The notes below the pieces were generated by a model. The model searched no databases. It had not been told where the DNA came from and was given only the letters and a program-made list of their open reading frames with translations. Shown here one piece after another: positions 3,019 through 12,205 of a DNA stretch of 64,000 bases; position 1 is the stretch's first letter; every line of letters starts with the position of its first letter. The stretch is from assembly GCF_019633745.1 (NCBI RefSeq), contig NZ_CP037968.1:2176789-2240788 (forward strand), in the 5' to 3' direction. The position numbers and the translations under genes were made by a program. This stretch comes from Methanofollis formosanus. GTDB taxonomy: Archaea > Halobacteriota > Methanomicrobia > Methanomicrobiales > Methanofollaceae.

Positions 3019-4995
3019 TCAGCGGAGGGAGTAATGGCTGACCGATCCGGTGAACCAGATGCTGTTGGATGGGTTGTTCAGATTCATTCTGCCGTCCTGT
3101 GCCGGCACCAGGTTGTAGAGGACAATCTCCTGGCTGTCTGTTCCATAGACAATGGATCTGTCATCCACTCTGAGATCTGTCCACTTTTGTTTTGACGGGA
3201 CGTTCAGTGTCAGGGTCGAGGTGAGGGAGTCATGGCTCCTGATATAGATCCCTCTGATATTTCCTCTTTGTTTCTCGTCTCCGTTGATGTACAGCGTCAC
3301 ATCGTCGTAGTCGAATTGTGAGATCATCGGACCGTTGATATCGATGTGGCCATAACCATTCTCTCTGATTTCAAGTCGCACCATGTCGCCGATCTCGAGA
3401 TCGTAGTGTTCATTCTGAATGTTCACAGAGGAGTCGGCCCCTGTTACTCTGAATTCCAGGTACGTACCCGGGATGAGATGGCCGGCTTTGCCGTTTGCCG
3501 TGTTGAGCCTGACCTCGTATCCCGTCGGAGGGGATGTGACGGTGATATAGTCTGTCTTGGCTGTCGTGTGTGAGCCGAAGAGGTTGGTGGCGGTGAGGCT
3601 GACCGTGTAGGTGCCCGGTGCGTCGTAGGTGTGTGCCGGGTTTTGCTCGGTCGAGGTCTCACCATCGCCGAAGTCCCAGGACCATGCGGTCGGGTCGCCG
3701 ACGGAGCGGTCGGTGAACCGGACGGTGAGGGGTACCTCTCCTGATGTCTGATCGGCGGTGAAGTTGGTCTCGATCGCGGGTGGGCCCTGGCAGAAGGATT
3801 CGACGGGCCGTCTTTCAAAGGCGGAGGAGGACCACTCCAGGTGGAAGACGGCCTCCCCTTCGTTCTCGAACATGGTTGCCCGGATCGGGTGGGGCCCTGC
3901 AGTGAGATGGACCGATGTTGTCTTCTCCTGTACCTTGTGGTAGCCCCAGTTGTCGATCAGGGGTTCGTTGCTCTCTGCGACTGCATCCACCCAGAGTTTC
4001 GAACCGTCGTCAGAGGACAGGTAGAACGTATATGTGTCGTCTGCCGGCACGACGAGGTATCCCTCGTAGATCACACTGAACTGGTCTTGTTTCCCGAGCG
4101 TTGACTGGGGCCAGTCATATTCGTCGGTCTCGGCCCGGATCCAGGGTGTCGTGTTGGCTTTCCGGTCTGCAAACCAGATCCTCCGGTCGAGTCTCTGGAC
4201 TGACGTGCCGGTAAAGTCTCTGGTCGGGTAATAGGTTCCTGTGATGCCCGGGGAGGAACACCGGTAGACCATGATGTATCCGGTCCTGGTGAGATCGTCG
4301 GAGCCGCCGGAATTGGCTATGGTGAGGCTGACGGTGTAGATCCCCGGCTCAGTATAGGTATGGAGGGGGTGCCGCTCGGTCGAGTGCGTGCCGTCGCCGA
4401 AGTCCCAGGACCATGCAGTCGGGCCGCCGACGGAACGGTCGGTGAACCGGACGGTGAGGGGTGCGGTGCCTGTCGTCGGCTCGGCGGTGAAGTCTGCCGT
4501 GAGGGGCTCCGGGGTGGGTTCGGTCGTCGGTATGGTCGTCGGGTCGGCGGTCGGTGTCACCGTCGGTTCGATCGCCGTGCCGTTCCCGAGGTCGTGGAGA
4601 AGCCAATCGGTGCCGGTGCCCTCCACACCTTCGGCGACGATCCGGATGTCGGGACTCTCGGTTGCCGGTACGTCGCGGAGGACGAGGGTCTGTCCGGTCG
4701 CCCATGACGTCCAGTCGTGCTCCTCGACGCCTGAGGCGTTGATGAGGACGGCGTCGCCCGTCCGGTCAACACCGTTGATGAGGATCAGAAAATGGCCGCG
4801 TTCGAGAGGGTCGCCGCCGTCGTGGTAGACGGAGACGGTCTCGTCCTCGGTCTCGATGTGGGCGAGCATCGCGGGGGGCAGATCGCCTGGAGGGTGGGAG
4901 AGGATGGCGACGCCGACGACCGCCGCCGCGGTTACGAAGATGGCGATGAGGGCCATGACGGCGACGAGTTCGCTGGCGGCGGTGTCGGTCTGCAT
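3019..4995 (-). CDS. Pilin-like surface protein with two PKD domains and a PA14 domain
   Basis: This 658-residue protein is predicted to be exported and anchored by an N-terminal pilin-type segment: [18 protein letters not shown] followed by a long hydrophobic stretch, as in archaeal Pilin_N (DUF1628) proteins. After a Thr/Pro linker comes a PKD domain (around [10 protein letters not shown]), then a PA14-like carbohydrate-binding region (about residues 255-385, with [14 protein letters not shown]), a second PKD domain ([10 protein letters not shown]), and a C-terminal beta-rich domain shared with the next gene upstream. The start at 4995 was chosen over the longer frame because it gives a clean pilin signal and follows TAAGGA; the longer start would overlap the upstream gene. 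It is the third gene of a minus-strand operon. Role inferred: adhesion or cell-surface polysaccharide binding. Confidence 0.8.
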
Positions 4996-5020
4996 CGTTC
5001 TGTCCTTATTGTTTCTCTGG

Positions 5021-6121
5021 CTAGAGGATGGTGTAACTCTCCGCCCCGCCGTCATAGTACACGGATTTGCCAACATGGCTGATGCTGATGAGGTCGAGGT
5101 TCATCACACCGAATGAGTCGGGGATGAGGTGGGTGAGGACAAACCCGCTCCTGTCTTTCCAGTCCTCGACGACGACCTCGTCGTCGACTTCGAAGTAGGT
5201 CCATTTGTTCTTCGGCTCGACCGAGAGAGTGAGAGTGGAGTTCAGGTCGTCGTAGCCGCCGATCCAGATGTCGCCGAAACCGATCGCACCCTCGCCGAGG
5301 AGTTCGCCGTTGACGCTGACCCTGACGTCAGGAAACTCAAAGGTACTGATCGAAGATATGCCGATATGGATGAGGCCTTTCTGGTCGCTTAAGAACGTGA
5401 TTTCGACCCGGTCGCCAGGGGAGAGGGCCTGATACTGTCCGTCGACGTTGATGGAGGACCACAGACCGGTGACCCTGAATGCAAAGGTGCCGCCGCCGTT
5501 GATTACCCCCTCTTTCGGGTGCTCTGTTATGAGGGTGATGTCGTGGCCTGTGACGGGGTGCGGCGTTGTCGGTATTGTGGTCGGGATCGTCGTCGGGATT
5601 GTCGTCGGCGTCGTGGTCGGGATCGTCGTTGGTCTCACGGTCGGTACCGTGCCCGAACCCCCGGCGTCCGCCTGTGACCCCCCGCCGTCCGCCCCGCCTC
5701 GATCTCTCTGGTAGGAGGGTTCGGCAATGACAATCTCGCCGCCTCTGGTATCGACGGCCGAGACAACGACCCTTTCGGGTCTGCCCTGGCCCGTATAGGT
5801 GAGGGTCTCGCCGATCGACCAGAGGCTGTCGTTCCCGGTGAGGTTGAACGCGGCCGTTCTGTCCTCAAGTCCGGCGCCGGTATCGACATAGACCCGGTAC
5901 TTCCCCTCGGCAAGGGGATCGCCGCCTTCATGGAAAAGGATAAATGAACCGTTGCTGGAGTTTCCCGCGACGATGCTCGCGTGCGGCACCTCTGCCACAT
6001 GGGGTTGGGAGAAGAGCGTCACCACCACGATCGCCACCGCAAGCACCACCAGAGCGATCAACAGGACGCTCCCGATGATCTCAGAGACGCCTTCCTCGTC
6101 TGGTCTTTGCAGGTATGCCAT
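5021..6121 (-). CDS. Archaeal pilin-like protein with Thr/Pro stalk
   Basis: This 366-residue protein begins with a charged segment and the archaeal pilin signature [20 protein letters not shown], which is the expected substrate of a class III (PibD/EppA-type) signal peptidase cutting before the hydrophobic stretch. The middle contains about eight TTIPT-type repeats forming a Thr/Pro stalk (around residues 165-190). The C-terminal domain, about 170 residues, resembles that of the downstream PKD/PA14 protein (TLTLSV..K.KWT..EVDD motif), so the two probably share a common module. An alternative GTG at 6136 overlaps the upstream stop, but the ATG at 6121 has a GAGG site nearby and is preferred. 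Likely a minor pilin or surface filament component. Confidence 0.75.
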
Positions 6122-6132
6122 CGTTGTTCGCC

Positions 6133-7038
6133 TCACTCGATCAGGGATGCCGCATTGAAGACCGTCACTGCATAATCTGCCGTCGTGACACTGAGGGCGA
6201 CGTCGGGGGTTCCTTCAGGCCCGGGGCCGTCGACCCGGATGGATACTGTTCCCCCGGCGTCGGTGCCGACCGAGTACCACTCCGCGGGCACGCCGCCGTT
6301 TCTGGTCGCCTCACGGAAGACCTGTTTAAGGGCCTGCGCTTTCCCGGCATCTCCGGTCTCAACGGTGATCGTCACATTCTCGTAGAGGCCGTCAAGGTCG
6401 TACGGCGGCATGTCCCGCAGCCGCGACTCGATCCGCACCGGACCTGACCCGGCGAAGAGGGCCGAACCGGTGATGTTCACCGGGGTGAACCGCACGGCGG
6501 CCGTGGTATTGTTGATGTTGTAGACCGAGAGCGGGGGGGCCACCCGGACGGTCGTTCCCCCCTCCTGTGTCAGGAAGACCGCACCCATCTGGTAGGTCCA
6601 GGTCTGATCGACCCAGTAGTTGTTCCCGGAGACGTACTGCACCAGGCCCAGGGGGATCCTCACCCCGCCGGGGTTGTCGCCGGTGGCGATGGTGACGGCC
6701 CCTGCGTCGGACCTGACCTCGACCGCGCCCGACGACCCCACCGGCGCGAGGACGGGAAGAGCGATCCCTCCGCCCTCAGTCGCCGCCGTGCCCGACCCGA
6801 GGTCGAAGGCCGTCGAGAGAGTGACGCCGTTCAGGTGGTTCACCCAGAGCGAATCGAGCGCGATCTTGTAGTCGGTGAACCGGTCTTTCACCTGGTTCAT
6901 ATGCGCGATCTCGTTCTCCCGCCCTGCTGCCGGCACCGCATAGAGTTGATAAACCGAGAGTGCAAGCACGAGGACGCCGAGGAGGAGGACAAAACCCACT
7001 ACTTCAGAGAGTCCTTCATCGTCCTGTGCCCGAATCAT
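6133..7038 (-). CDS. Archaeal pilin-like membrane-anchored protein
   Basis: This 301-residue protein starts MIRAQDDEGLSEVVGFVLLL, a pilin-type signal with acidic residues before a Gly/Leu/Val-rich transmembrane segment. The rest is predicted extracellular, beta-rich, and close to DUF1628/DUF7289-type proteins of methanogens and haloarchaea. It is the first gene of the three-gene pilin-like operon and overlaps the next gene's region by only a few bases. The frame extends to 7077, but an AT-rich TATA-like box at about 7060-7070 and the lack of a ribosome site suggest leaderless transcription starting at the ATG at 7038. The specific structural role is unknown. Confidence 0.7.
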   Translation of the reverse strand: MIRAQDDEGLSEVVGFVLLLGVLVLALSVYQLYAVPAAGRENEIAHMNQVKDRFTDYKIALDSLWVNHLNGVTLSTAFDLGSGTAATEGGGIALPVLAPVGSSGAVEVRSDAGAVTIATGDNPGGVRIPLGLVQYVSGNNYWVDQTWTYQMGAVFLTQEGGTTVRVAPPLSVYNINNTTAAVRFTPVNITGSALFAGSGPVRIESRLRDMPPYDLDGLYENVTITVETGDAGKAQALKQVFREATRNGGVPAEWYSVGTDAGGTVSIRVDGPGPEGTPDVALSVTTADYAVTVFNAASLIE

Positions 7039-7041
7039 GGT

Positions 7042-7057
7042 ACCGATGTACATCGGT
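7042..7057. promoter_or_regulatory. Perfect 16-bp palindrome at the pilin operon start
   Basis: ACCGATGTACATCGGT is a perfect inverted repeat lying between the probable TATA box (7060-7070) and the ATG at 7038 of the first pilin-like gene. Its position over the expected transcription start is where an archaeal repressor would block the polymerase. The regulator is unknown. Confidence 0.5.
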
Positions 7058-7115
7058 GCGATATTTATGTTTTTCAAATGGGCCTGCCATGCCGTCTAGG
7101 ATATGGTTAAGGATG

Positions 7116-7146: not shown

Positions 7147-8163
7147 ATGAACACAGACGAAACGGGTCGTACCGGCGGCTGCGGGCCGCATCTCTCTGAT
7201 GGGTGTGTCCTCTGCTATGAGGGGGCGAAGATGGTTCTTTTCGTGACCGGGGTGTGCGGGAGAGACTGCTGGTACTGTCCGCTCTCCGAGACGCGCCGGG
7301 GACGGGAGGTGGTCTACGCGAACGACCGACTGGTGAAGAGCCCAGACGACATCGTTGAGGAGGCCGAGATGATGAGCGCGCTCGGCACCGGCGTCACCGG
7401 CGGCGAACCCTTCCTGGTGCTGGACGAGGTCGTCTCGTACTGCCGTCTTCTCAAGGAGCATTTCGGGCCCGACCATCATATCCACCTCTATACCGGGATC
7501 GCCCCCACGAAGGCGCAGCTCGAACCTCTCCGCGGGCTCGTGGACGAGGTCCGTCTCCACCCGCCGCAGGAACACTGGGCCGATATCCTGGCCGGTCCGT
7601 ACGCTGCCTCGGTGCGGACCGCCCGCGATCTCGGGTTTTCCATCGGGATCGAGGTTCCGTCTCTCCCGGGCATCGAAGCCCTCGCCGCGATCCTGCCTGA
7701 ACTCGATTTTCTCAACATCAACGAACTCGAGTGGAGCGAGACCAATGCCGTGGCCATGCGGGAACGGAACCTCGACCTTGAGGACGGTCTCCACAATGCC
7801 GTCGGCGGGGCAGAGGCCTGGGCCGCTCCTCTTCTTGACGACCCGAAGGTCCACTTCTGCTCCTCGGCCTTCAAGGACTCGGTCCAGCTGCGGGAAAGGC
7901 TCAAAAGAATCGCGGCCAACACGGCCAGACCTTTCGATGAGATTACCGAAGACGGAACGGTCGTATATGGGGTTCTCGAACTGGAAGACGGCGATCTTCC
8001 GCTGCTCCTTCAGGAAAATATATATGAGATCGAAGTCTCTGGTAATCAGGTCGAGATGGCGTGGTGGATGCTTGCTGAGATGCGAGACCAGTTGCCCGGG
8101 CGCAAATATGTCGTGGAGCGGTATCCCAATGGCGGGATAGTCCTGGAGGTGACGCCACTCTGA
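7147..8163 (+). CDS. Radical SAM protein, pyruvate formate-lyase-activating-like (COG2108 type)
   Basis: This 338-residue protein carries the radical SAM cluster motif Cys37-x3-Cys41-x2-Cys44 (CGRDCWYC), a Gly-rich GTGVTGGEP SAM-binding segment and a TIM-barrel-like pattern. Extra cysteines at 12, 20 and 23 precede the motif and could bind zinc or another cluster. It resembles the archaeal COG2108 group, described as related to pyruvate formate-lyase activating enzyme; the substrate is not known. Its stop codon TGA at 8161-8163 overlaps the start of the cis-prenyltransferase gene, so the two are probably translated together. Confidence 0.75.
   Translation: MNTDETGRTGGCGPHLSDGCVLCYEGAKMVLFVTGVCGRDCWYCPLSETRRGREVVYANDRLVKSPDDIVEEAEMMSALGTGVTGGEPFLVLDEVVSYCRLLKEHFGPDHHIHLYTGIAPTKAQLEPLRGLVDEVRLHPPQEHWADILAGPYAASVRTARDLGFSIGIEVPSLPGIEALAAILPELDFLNINELEWSETNAVAMRERNLDLEDGLHNAVGGAEAWAAPLLDDPKVHFCSSAFKDSVQLRERLKRIAANTARPFDEITEDGTVVYGVLELEDGDLPLLLQENIYEIEVSGNQVEMAWWMLAEMRDQLPGRKYVVERYPNGGIVLEVTPL
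8145..8152 (+). promoter_or_regulatory. Strong ribosome binding site deciding a CTG start
   Basis: GGAGGTGA is a full match to the archaeal 16S anti-Shine-Dalgarno sequence. It sits 7 bases before a CTG at 8160, and no in-frame ATG, GTG or TTG exists close by in the frame of the cis-prenyltransferase. Confidence 0.7.
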
Positions 8164-8924
8164 ATCTCAGAGGCCAGATTGAACCGCTTTACGAGCGCTA
8201 TCTCAACTGGCAGTGCAAACATATTCCTGCCCATATCGCCATCATCCAGGACGGCAACCGGCGATATGCAAGGCTCAACAACGTCGGCACCATAGACGGG
8301 CATCGGGCGGGTGCGGAGACCACCCAGCGCGTCCTGGAGTGGGCGCAGGATCTCGGGATAAGGACGATCACCCTGTACTCCTTCTCAACCGAGAACTTTA
8401 AGCGCGATCCTGCCGAGGTCGACTATCTCTTCGAACTCTTCAAGAGGAAGTTTGCGGAGATCCGTGAGGACGACCGGGTGCACCGGAACCAGATCAGGGT
8501 CCAGATGATCGGCGACCGTTCGATGCTACCCCATGATCTCCTCGAGATCATCGAGGCTGCGGAGGACGCCACCCGCCACTATAGCCGGTACTTCCTCAAC
8601 ATCGCCCTGGCGTACGGCGGGCGCAACGAGATCGTCCATGCCGCCCGGGGAGTCGTGGCAGGGGTGAGAGAGGGTACGGTGAAGGCCGACGCGATCACCC
8701 CCAAGACGGTCGAGTACTACCTGTACGACGGGATCCATCTCCCCCCGGTCGACCTCATCGTGCGGACCGGGAACGAGCGGCGGACCTCGAACTTCCTGCC
8801 CTGGATGGCAAACGGGAACGAGTGTGCGGTGTACTTCTGCGCCCCGTACTGGCCGGTCTTCAGGAAGATCGACCTGCTGCGGGCGATCCGGGTGTACGAC
8901 CAGCGGGTGCGGAGACGCCGGTAA
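8160..8924 (+). CDS. uppS: Cis-prenyltransferase (undecaprenyl-diphosphate synthase family), CTG start
   Basis: This 254-residue protein makes long-chain polyprenyl diphosphate, the lipid carrier for glycan assembly, by adding isopentenyl units in cis. The catalytic Asp31 is in the motif QDGNRRYA, followed by GHRAGAET, the SFSTENFKR segment and, at the C-terminus, RTGNERRTSNFLPW, all hallmarks of the family. The usual N-terminal segment (YERYLNWQCKHIPAHIA) lies upstream of the first GTG at 8478, so the true start must be further 5'. Only the CTG at 8160 fits; it overlaps the preceding stop codon and has a perfect GGAGGTGA 7 bases upstream. A second, degenerate family member lies at 11002-11592. 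Confidence 0.88.
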   Translation: MNLRGQIEPLYERYLNWQCKHIPAHIAIIQDGNRRYARLNNVGTIDGHRAGAETTQRVLEWAQDLGIRTITLYSFSTENFKRDPAEVDYLFELFKRKFAEIREDDRVHRNQIRVQMIGDRSMLPHDLLEIIEAAEDATRHYSRYFLNIALAYGGRNEIVHAARGVVAGVREGTVKADAITPKTVEYYLYDGIHLPPVDLIVRTGNERRTSNFLPWMANGNECAVYFCAPYWPVFRKIDLLRAIRVYDQRVRRRR

Positions 8925-8946
8925 CCTTTTCCTGGTCCTGAATGGT

Positions 8947-9180
8947 GGCTGTGTAGAATTTTGCATGAGGCGAACGCCCGCCTCAAGCATACGGGATGAA
9001 AATATCAGATCAGATCTGGATCGATTCTTGACCTTCATCCTTGCGTTCGAGGAGTGAATCGAAGTCAAGCACCATGCCGCCCCTCGGCTATCTTCGTCGT
9101 GGGGGGTCCGGGGGGCAAAGCCCCCCGCAGAGAGAGCAATCCAGATGATTGCAACAAAGCCCGAATCCCCATTATAATCG
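8947..9180. mobile_element. MITE-like element, short copy
   Basis: A forward end at 8951-9003 carries palindrome arms GAGGCG (8967-8972) and CGCCTC (8979-8984). A GC-rich hairpin box follows at about 9090-9135. The right boundary is uncertain; CAACAAAGCCCG near 9150-9161 looks like a decayed inverted end. The flanking 9181-9319 contains the probable promoter of the PolX gene and nothing else recognised. Confidence 0.65.
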
Positions 9181-9319
9181 CGGAGGCCGACATTCTGGAT
9201 CATTATCATAATAGGACCTGAAGCGTGTTTCTGCTTCGTGCTCGATACTCCAGGGCTTTTTCCGATACAATTTTTCCGGAGCCCCACACCGATAAATATC
9301 GAGGACACAACTCCCATCT

Positions 9320-11005
9320 ATGGACGCGACCAACCGGCAGGTTGCAGAGGTGCTTGCGGAGATCGGCGCCCTGCTCGAGATCCTTGGCGAGAACCCCTTC
9401 AAGGTGCGGGCCTATGCGAGGGCCGCCGAGGTGGTCGGGCACCTGGGCCGGTCGGTCGCGGGGATGGACAGAGACGAACTCGAGGTGCTTCCCGGGATCG
9501 GGAAGGCAATTGCAGAGAAGATCACCGAGATCGTCGAGACCGGCACCTGCAGGGAACGGGAACGTCTCCGCGAGGCGATGCCGCCCGGGTTACCGGCGCT
9601 GCTGGACCTCCAGGGTGTAGGCCCAAAGACCGTCCGCAGACTCTGGAAAGATCTCGGGGTCGGTGGGCTCGACGACCTCGAGGCCGCGGCACGGGGGCAC
9701 CGGATCCGGACGCTCAGGGGCTTTGGCGAGAAGAAGGAGCATGAGATCCTCAGGGCGGTCGGCGTCGCCAGGAGGGGTTCCGAACGGATGAGCCTGACCG
9801 AGGCCGAACCGCTGGCAGACCTGCTGCTCGCCGCCATCCCCGGGGAGGCACGGGTGGCCGGCAGCCTCCGGCGCGGCCGGTCCACCATCGGCGACATCGA
9901 TATCGTCACCCTCGCACCAGCCGCCGAGACCGCCCTGGCCCTGGCCGGGGTCGCCGACGAGGTCATTGACGCCGGGGAGAAGAAGGTCTCGGTCAGGATC
10001 GGCGGACGGCGGGCCGACGTCAGGTTCACCGCTCCCGACGAGATCGGGGCGATGCTCCTGTATCTCACCGGCTCGAAGGCCTTCAACATCAGGCTCAGGG
10101 AGGTCGCCCGGTCCGCTGGCATGCGCCTGAACGAGTACGGGCTGACCGACCAGGAGACCGGCGGACTCAGGCGGTTCAGGACCGAAGATGAGGTTTTTGC
10201 GGCGCTTGGGATGAGTCCGGTCCCGCCGGAACTGCGTGAGGACCGGGGAGAGGTGGAACTGGCCCTCGAAGGGGCTCTTCCTTCCCTCGTGGACGTGCAG
10301 GAGGTCAGGGGCGACCTCCATGTCCACTCAGATTGGAGCGACGGCTCGATGAGCCTGGAGGAGATCGCCGCCGCCGGGGAGGCGAGGGGCTACGAGTATG
10401 TCCTGGTCAGCGACCACTCGGCAAGCCTCGGGATCGCCCGCGGCCTCGACGCCCCGGGGCTTGCACGGCAACAGGCGGCGATCGAGCAGGTGAACCGCAC
10501 TGCAGGGTGCACGCTCCTTGCCGGGGTGGAGGTGGACATCATTGCCGACGGGAGGCTCGGCCTCCCCGACGAGGCGTTGGAGGGCTGTGACCTGGTCATC
10601 GCATCGGTCCACTCGGCCTTCGGCCAGGACGAAGACGTGATGACCCGGCGGGTGATCGCCGCCATCGAGAACCGCCGCGTCGATATCATCGGCCATCCGA
10701 CCGGGCGGATCATCGGCCGGCGGCCGCCGGTGGCCGTCGACATGGAGCGAGTCATCGGCGCCGCAGCCGAAAACAGAACGGCCCTGGAGATCAACGCCTC
10801 CCCCGGCCGCCTGGATCTGGATGATATTTATATTAAGCAGGCCCATGAAAGGGGCGTGAGACTTGCAATCGGAACAGATGCCCACGCCCCCTCTGAACTC
10901 GCGAATATCAGATATGGTCTCGCCCTCGCACGCCGGGGGTGGTGCGGGCCCGGCGACATTCTCAATACCCGGTCACTTGCGGACCTGACGGGGCGGCACG
11001 GATGA
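9320..11005 (+). CDS. polX: Family X DNA polymerase with C-terminal PHP domain
   Basis: This 561-residue protein has the bacterial/archaeal PolX layout. An N-terminal HhH region (about 1-130, LPGIGKAIAEKI and LQGVGPKTVRRLW) is followed by a nucleotidyltransferase palm with GSLRRGRSTIGDIDIV, whose two Asp residues bind metal, and a third acidic residue in RADVRF. The C-terminal PHP domain starts near residue 335 (DLHVHSDWSDGSM, LVSDHS, IIGHPTGR, GTDAHAPSEL), normally giving 3'-5' exonuclease or AP endonuclease activity with Mn. The length matches the family (about 570). Expected role: gap filling in base excision repair. The ATG at 9320 has no clear ribosome site, so a leaderless transcript is likely. 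The stop overlaps the next start as ATGA. Confidence 0.92.
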   Translation: MDATNRQVAEVLAEIGALLEILGENPFKVRAYARAAEVVGHLGRSVAGMDRDELEVLPGIGKAIAEKITEIVETGTCRERERLREAMPPGLPALLDLQGVGPKTVRRLWKDLGVGGLDDLEAAARGHRIRTLRGFGEKKEHEILRAVGVARRGSERMSLTEAEPLADLLLAAIPGEARVAGSLRRGRSTIGDIDIVTLAPAAETALALAGVADEVIDAGEKKVSVRIGGRRADVRFTAPDEIGAMLLYLTGSKAFNIRLREVARSAGMRLNEYGLTDQETGGLRRFRTEDEVFAALGMSPVPPELREDRGEVELALEGALPSLVDVQEVRGDLHVHSDWSDGSMSLEEIAAAGEARGYEYVLVSDHSASLGIARGLDAPGLARQQAAIEQVNRTAGCTLLAGVEVDIIADGRLGLPDEALEGCDLVIASVHSAFGQDEDVMTRRVIAAIENRRVDIIGHPTGRIIGRRPPVAVDMERVIGAAAENRTALEINASPGRLDLDDIYIKQAHERGVRLAIGTDAHAPSELANIRYGLALARRGWCGPGDILNTRSLADLTGRHG

Positions 11006-11592
11006 TCCACTGGCTCTACGAGCGGCTCCTCCTCAGGAACCTGGATAAACTCCCTCACCATGTCTGTTTCATGATCACCGGCGAGGACATGATCGAAGCG
11101 CCCCGCCAGATCGTCGAGACGACGGAGTGGTGCCGGGAGGTCGGGCTCAGCGGGGCGACCTTCCATATCTCGACCGATCGGCCGGACGAGATCAGGGCAT
11201 GTCTCCCGGCGATCCGGAAGGTCGGAGACATCGCCAGCCTCAACCTCTACTATGCCGAGAACGTCGAGACGGCCGGCGAGGGGATGGAGGTGACCGTTGC
11301 CGTCGGAAAGAGCGGCCGGGAGGAGATCGCCGCATGTATCAGAAAGATCGCCGAAGAAGGGGTCGACCCTGCGGAGATCGACGAGGAGACGATCGAGCGC
11401 CACCTCACCTTCAGGTGCATGCCCGACCTGGTGATCAAGACCGGCGGCAACTATCTCACCGACTTTCTCATCTGGCAGTCCGTCTACTCTGAACTCTTTT
11501 TCCTTGATGTGAACTGGAAGTGGTTCAGGAAAGTCGACTTTCTCAGGGCCCTCAGGGACTACCAGTCCAGGGCGCGTCGGTTCGGGACCTGA
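11002..11592 (+). CDS. Cis-prenyltransferase-like protein without the catalytic motif
   Basis: This 196-residue protein aligns along its length with the cis-prenyltransferase at 8160-8924. The N-terminus WLYERLLLRNLDKLPHHV matches YERYLNWQCKHIPAHI, and the C-terminus SELFFLDVNWKWFRKVDFLRALRDYQSRARR matches the end of that enzyme in shorter pieces. The catalytic motif DGNRR is replaced by TGEDM, so the essential Asp is gone, and the RTG...SNFLxW segment has become KTGGNYLTDFLIW. It is also about 60 residues shorter, with a deletion after the first strand. It therefore looks like a non-catalytic partner subunit, comparable to Nus1/NgBR in eukaryotic heteromeric enzymes. The start overlaps the polX stop (ATGA), so it is translationally coupled to polX. 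Confidence 0.8.
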   Translation: MIHWLYERLLLRNLDKLPHHVCFMITGEDMIEAPRQIVETTEWCREVGLSGATFHISTDRPDEIRACLPAIRKVGDIASLNLYYAENVETAGEGMEVTVAVGKSGREEIAACIRKIAEEGVDPAEIDEETIERHLTFRCMPDLVIKTGGNYLTDFLIWQSVYSELFFLDVNWKWFRKVDFLRALRDYQSRARRFGT

Positions 11593-11659: not shown

Positions 11660-12205
11660 AGGCAAAATCGGGCCCTGTAGAAAGCATCCCCCTTTTCATC
11701 ATCTCAACCCCCCTGTGAACCGCGAATCCATCGCCTTCCTTCATGCTCACGCCGGGGACGTTGCCCCTGGACCCCCACGACGAAGATAGGGGTGGGGCGG
11801 CAGCACGCTCTTGAACGAAACCGTACTTCAGAGCCTTCATTCCCCTCACCTGTCAGGGCCAGGGGAGTTTTGGGATGACCTCCATGAAAATGATCCCGAA
11901 GATTATCTCTCCGGGTTTGCATGAGAATGTGCACTCACCAGATCTCTTTGAAGATGATACACAGATGATAGAACATTCTTCAGAGTGATCGGCCGCCTCC
12001 AATCGTTGAATCTTCACCGTCGTCTCGCGCCGGGGGGCGTTGCCCCCGAACCCCCCCCACGGCGAGGATAGGCAGGGGCGGCGGTTGAACGAAGTCTCCA
12101 CCGATTCTTCTGTCTTGAAAAGAGAGAGAAAACAAGCGACGGAAAATGTTCATCCCGTGTGCTTGAGGCGTGCTTTCACCTCATGAGCAATTCTACACGG
12201 TGTGC
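11660..12205. mobile_element. MITE-like element
   Basis: The left end GGGCCCTGTAGAAA (about 11669) and the right end (about 12158-12203, arms GAGGCG and CACCTC, then AGCAATTCTACAC) are inverted. The interior has GC-rich hairpin boxes near 11760 and 12030 and a module also present near 1935 and 25570 (ending TTTTGGGATGACCTC). No coding sequence was found inside. Confidence 0.7.

Follow-up and report, generated by a model that had tools for sequence, protein, structure and literature searches.

Does a cis-prenyltransferase homologue without the catalytic DGNRR motif serve an intact homologue encoded nearby as its partner subunit, in the manner of the eukaryotic DHDDS/Nus1 (NgBR) pairs? Two genes of the methanogen Methanofollis formosanus raise this question. 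They lie in a stretch of 64,000 nucleotides, referred to here as the window (GCF_019633745.1, NZ_CP037968.1, positions 2,176,789-2,240,788, forward strand), within a complete genome of 2.97 Mb that carries two McrA genes. Across this whole genome, we found only two PF01255 genes, one with and one without DGNRR. What our analysis itself established concerns their gene content, motif partition, orthology, co-occurrence, and fold.

The catalytic subunit and its probable start codon

The upstream gene (8160-8924, forward strand) agrees with the original prediction, which placed a catalytic homologue 2 kb ahead of the non-catalytic one: its DGNRR is intact, and the gap between the two genes, filled by a polX-type gene, measures 2.08 kb. 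The product of 254 aa matches PF01255 over the whole domain (E 2.7e-69) and retains all catalytic motifs, i.e., DGNRR, H, S/N/R, and R..R.S. The pyrophosphate-binding DGNRR is encoded at 8250-8264 on the forward strand (D31-G-N-R-R35 of the translation). The chain ends in VYDQRVRRRR, eight residues past LLRAIRVY, and carries no RXG.

The open frame of the gene spans 8079-8924. No ATG, GTG, or TTG occurs in frame before 8478, and a start at 8478 would remove the catalytic loop. The CTG at 8160-8162 overlaps the stop codon of the radical SAM gene that precedes it (CTGA), and GGAGGTGA is found upstream of the CTG, at about 8145. Because relatives have ATG, GTG, TTG, or CTG at the aligned position (CTG at five other loci), CTG 8160 is likely to be the start codon of the catalytic subunit.

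The radical SAM gene (7147-8163, forward strand) lies directly upstream and adjoins the catalytic gene in 20 of 20 loci examined in the window's order. On the minus strand of the window, 3019-7077 holds consecutive genes for pilin/archaellin-like proteins whose N-termini are hydrophobic; one of the proteins has PKD-type repeats. In many families outside the window's order, catalytic subunits carry a C-terminal extension of ~40-60 aa past the last helix (seen at 11 loci), which is absent from the order itself. A role in oligomerisation, as for the C-terminal domain of DHDDS, is conceivable for this extension.

A homologue without the catalytic motif

The second gene (11002-11592, forward strand) starts with an ATG that overlaps the polX stop codon (ATGA) and encodes a protein of 196 aa, which we call the helper. 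It was predicted to be a cis-prenyltransferase homologue with TGEDM at the position of DGNRR, and this is what the translation and the profile match show: TGEDM stands at T26-G-E-D-M30 (11077-11091, forward strand), and PF01255 is matched with an E value of 3.4e-26, albeit only at model positions 106-219, the C-terminal half. TGEDM, which the prediction treated as marking a type, is not itself a conserved motif. Relatives of the helper have ITEQD, VSDAD, ITERD, and other variants at this position, and only the Asp (D29) is near-invariant; the conserved trait is the absence of DGNRR.

An AlphaFold2 model of the helper based on 35 sequences (mean pLDDT 83, pTM 0.80) has a cis-prenyltransferase fold, with an 11-residue helix starting at residue 2. 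Structure searches with the model return cis-prenyltransferases throughout. Human NUS1 chains are among them (Foldseek E 3e-10, TM about 0.6), and the best Z score, 15.7, is reached with a plant enzyme; a predicted fold of this kind cannot by itself tell helper from enzyme. In sequence profiles, NUS1 chains align to nearly the whole helper length, but UppS chains score better. No special kinship to NgBR is therefore shown, and we rejected an affinity to NUS1 as a sign of common origin.

The helper ends in an RXG motif followed by exactly one residue (R193-F-G-T196; 11578-11589, forward strand). Residues invariant in 32 diverse helpers include G105, E108, W158, Q159, E164, W172, R190, R192, R193, and G195. 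A decaying duplicate without function would account for the missing catalytic motif and the shorter N-terminal half, yet helpers form one ancient, phylum-wide clade (99% SH-aLRT), share many invariant residues over these 32 sequences, and yielded no broken copies. Such conservation shows strong purifying selection, for which reason we rejected a pseudogene and regard the probability of decay as negligible.

In one family (f5), helpers from 11 genomes match in two pieces that are split near residue 47. This suggests that some 14-19 residues are inserted in frame near this point in the f5 helpers.

The two chains divide the motifs between them

PF01255-type proteins from 57 pairs, sampled across the window's phylum, were surveyed for their motifs. 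DGNRR is absent from all 57 non-catalytic homologues, and each of them terminates in (R/K)-X-G plus exactly one residue, with R in 55 and K in two. Conversely, 58 of 58 main-clade catalytic homologues contain DGNRR; a terminal R-X-G-X occurs in one of the 58, the L064 protein, which ends in R-A-G-E, probably by chance. In every complete pair sampled in the phylum, one protein has DGNRR, and the other lacks it and bears the RXG tail.

Human NgBR ends in R290-L-G-K293, a tail that reaches over the interface and contributes to both DHDDS substrate sites (PMC7573591). In homodimer-type enzymes, RXG is highly conserved and resides in the same chain as the other motifs (PMC8131916). It is not an absolute rule, since yeast Nus1 is functional with Asn instead of the RXG Arg (PMC7573591). 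Homodimeric bacterial UppS shares fold, PF01255, and catalytic motifs with the catalytic subunit of the window and has DGNR and RXG in one chain. With DGNRR on the catalytic chain and RXG on the helper, the window pair therefore divides over two chains what UppS has in one. The RXG tail on the helper, which the prediction overlooked, is the strongest evidence for a heteromeric enzyme.

The same distribution bears on the possibility that the catalytic protein works without a partner, as a homodimer, and that the helper has another task, e.g., lipid binding or regulation. Although the catalytic protein has all catalytic motifs, as a homodimer would, it lacks the RXG of homodimeric enzymes, which the helper retains in 55 of 57 relatives (the remaining two have K instead of R), and the co-occurrence of both genes is near-strict. 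A homodimer without RXG, MM_0014 of Methanosarcina mazei, is active, yet it makes shorter products and has a special TLGG tail (PMC8131916). We thus consider a self-sufficient homodimer very unlikely; very likely, the catalytic subunit requires its helper partner.

Co-occurrence across the order and the phylum

The co-occurrence of the non-catalytic type with a catalytic copy, suggested by the original prediction as a check, is nearly complete: 116 of 120 genomes of the window's order have either gene, and 114 of the 116 have both types. Completeness is 77% and 62% for the two genomes that lack a catalytic match. At the level of the phylum, the helper query matches 288 of 295 genomes, almost all of them at least twice, and PF01255 was found in 73 of 77 sampled genomes. 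Such conservation over the phylum shows that the pair is not due to chance.

The family f12 deviates from this pattern. PF01255 was not found in the three f12 genomes searched for it, and no helper match was found in five mcrA-bearing f12 genomes. In four of these five, STT3 was not found either, and these four match neither of the cis-prenyltransferase queries tried. The f12 genomes are 75-91% complete, which weakens single absences but not the shared pattern: the lipid-carrier enzyme and the oligosaccharyltransferase appear to have been lost together. The joint absence of cis-prenyltransferase and STT3 fits a role of the product in N-glycosylation. The genome of M. formosanus has one STT3/AglB.

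Alternatively, the heteromeric pair might serve another polyprenol use, e.g., polysaccharide carriers. The window gives no view of product use, and the radical SAM gene next to the catalytic gene has an unassigned role, which would leave room for such a use. Against it speak that the pair represents the only cis-prenyltransferase in a genome with one STT3/AglB, that both functions are jointly missing in f12, and that the M. mazei heteromer is assigned to glycosyl carrier lipid (PMC8131916). We regard a use other than N-glycosylation as unlikely, and the two kinds of use are not mutually exclusive.

Orthology with the Methanosarcina mazei pair

According to Okada et al. (2021; PMC8131916), who cite Emi et al. 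(2019), two paralogues of M. mazei, MM_0618 and MM_1083, form a heteromeric cis-prenyltransferase with C45-50 products; which of the two is catalytic is not stated there. We recognized the M. mazei genome in our set (G366) via MM_0014, which shows about 99% identity over 222 residues to 7caq, and took MM_0618 and MM_1083 to be the two other PF01255 genes of this genome, since it has exactly two besides MM_0014.

In a tree of 77 proteins, from which eukaryotic and other-phylum archaeal sequences were left out, SH-aLRT support was 99 for the non-catalytic clade, 88 for the catalytic group, and 100 for the MM_0014-like group. Each window protein is placed in the group of its M. mazei counterpart, and each subunit forms one clade that tracks the species. 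Identity to the M. mazei counterpart is 47% over 248 aa for the catalytic subunit and, within the C-terminal 113 aa, 46% for the helper. RRYGK is the C-terminus of the M. mazei helper. By tree, the window pair is orthologous to the subunits of the M. mazei heteromer, with the same motif partition in both pairs, and the system is therefore already known.

Several features set the two organisms apart. M. mazei has the third homologue MM_0014, whereas the window genome has no gene of this type; the M. mazei genes lie about 0.55 Mb apart, those of the window 2 kb; and catalytic subunits of the window's order lack the C-terminal extension. The versatile cis-prenyltransferase MM_0014/MA1831 has the PF01255 fold in common with the window proteins but belongs to a separate clade (100%), bears the TLGG tail, and consists of a single chain. 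The window proteins fall outside this clade and have no LGG tail; on both grounds, we rejected the reading as a paralogue of the MM_0014 type.

Gene order and inversion of the polX-helper block

A shared operon was not used as evidence for partnership, since the two genes converge in most genomes of the order and polX intervenes in the window. Among same-contig pairs of the order, 103 of 106 are convergent, 69 of them with under 300 bp between the genes. That in most genomes the two genes are convergent or near neighbours speaks for a partnership; that most genomes have them in separate transcription units speaks against it. The PolX/PHP-type DNA polymerase gene (9320-11005, forward strand) travels with the helper gene: it adjoins it in the same orientation in the window and at eight further loci.

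The closest relative examined shows the order rSAM+ catalytic+ helper- polX- dtxR+, whereas the window reads rSAM+ catalytic+ polX+ helper+ dtxR+. Hence, the polX-helper block was inverted in place in the window. At one end of the block lies a dispersed repeat of ~190 bp (8951-9136, forward strand) and at the other end its inverted copy (12012-12198, minus strand); a partial further copy is present at 11764-11802. The genome contains 74 matches to this repeat, of which some 40 are near full length, with 83-93% identity. Recombination between the flanking copies would be the simplest cause of the inversion.

A probable two-subunit enzyme with a split active site

Taken together, the evidence indicates, with a probability of roughly 0.9, that the proteins encoded at 8160 and 11002 form a single heteromeric cis-prenyltransferase, the former as its catalytic and the latter as its non-catalytic subunit, and that this enzyme produces the long-chain polyprenyl diphosphate from which the glycosyl carrier lipid is made. 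The 8160 protein would bind the allylic and IPP diphosphates through its DGNRR, H, S/N/R, and R..R.S motifs and condense them. The 11002 protein, which has the same predicted fold and no catalytic loop, would pair with it in the usual cis-prenyltransferase dimer, and its RFGT tail would extend over the interface and thereby complete the active site of the partner and close it. We infer a physical dimer, helper-dependent activity, and a product near C45-50.

The heteromer of the DHDDS/Nus1 kind put forward in the original prediction thus finds support in co-occurrence, motif partition, and M. mazei orthology. It is not new: the prediction missed that the M. mazei enzyme already reported (PMC8131916) makes this a known system. 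Like the window pair, human DHDDS/NgBR (NUS1) has the same fold in both chains, the catalytic loop on one, and R-X-G plus one residue on the other. In contrast to the window proteins, NgBR has an N-terminal membrane segment and DHDDS a C-terminal tetramerisation domain.

A broader scenario would make the split-active-site enzyme ancestral and near-obligatory throughout the archaeal phylum, derived from one old duplication, and would see eukaryotic DHDDS/NgBR as inherited from such an archaeal pair instead of having evolved separately; we consider this rather unlikely, if conceivable.

The pair is a good but ordinary example of a two-part enzyme known from M. mazei and from eukaryotes, and what makes it of interest is the consistency of the partition throughout the phylum, not a new kind of system. 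A two-subunit enzyme described from one methanogen emerges as the rule across the phylum, with a consistent division of motifs. For the many UppS-like proteins of these genomes that lack DGNRR, the proper annotation is partner subunit and not synthase, and the M. formosanus genome, which has no third homologue, offers a clean setting for studying helper dependence and chain-length control.
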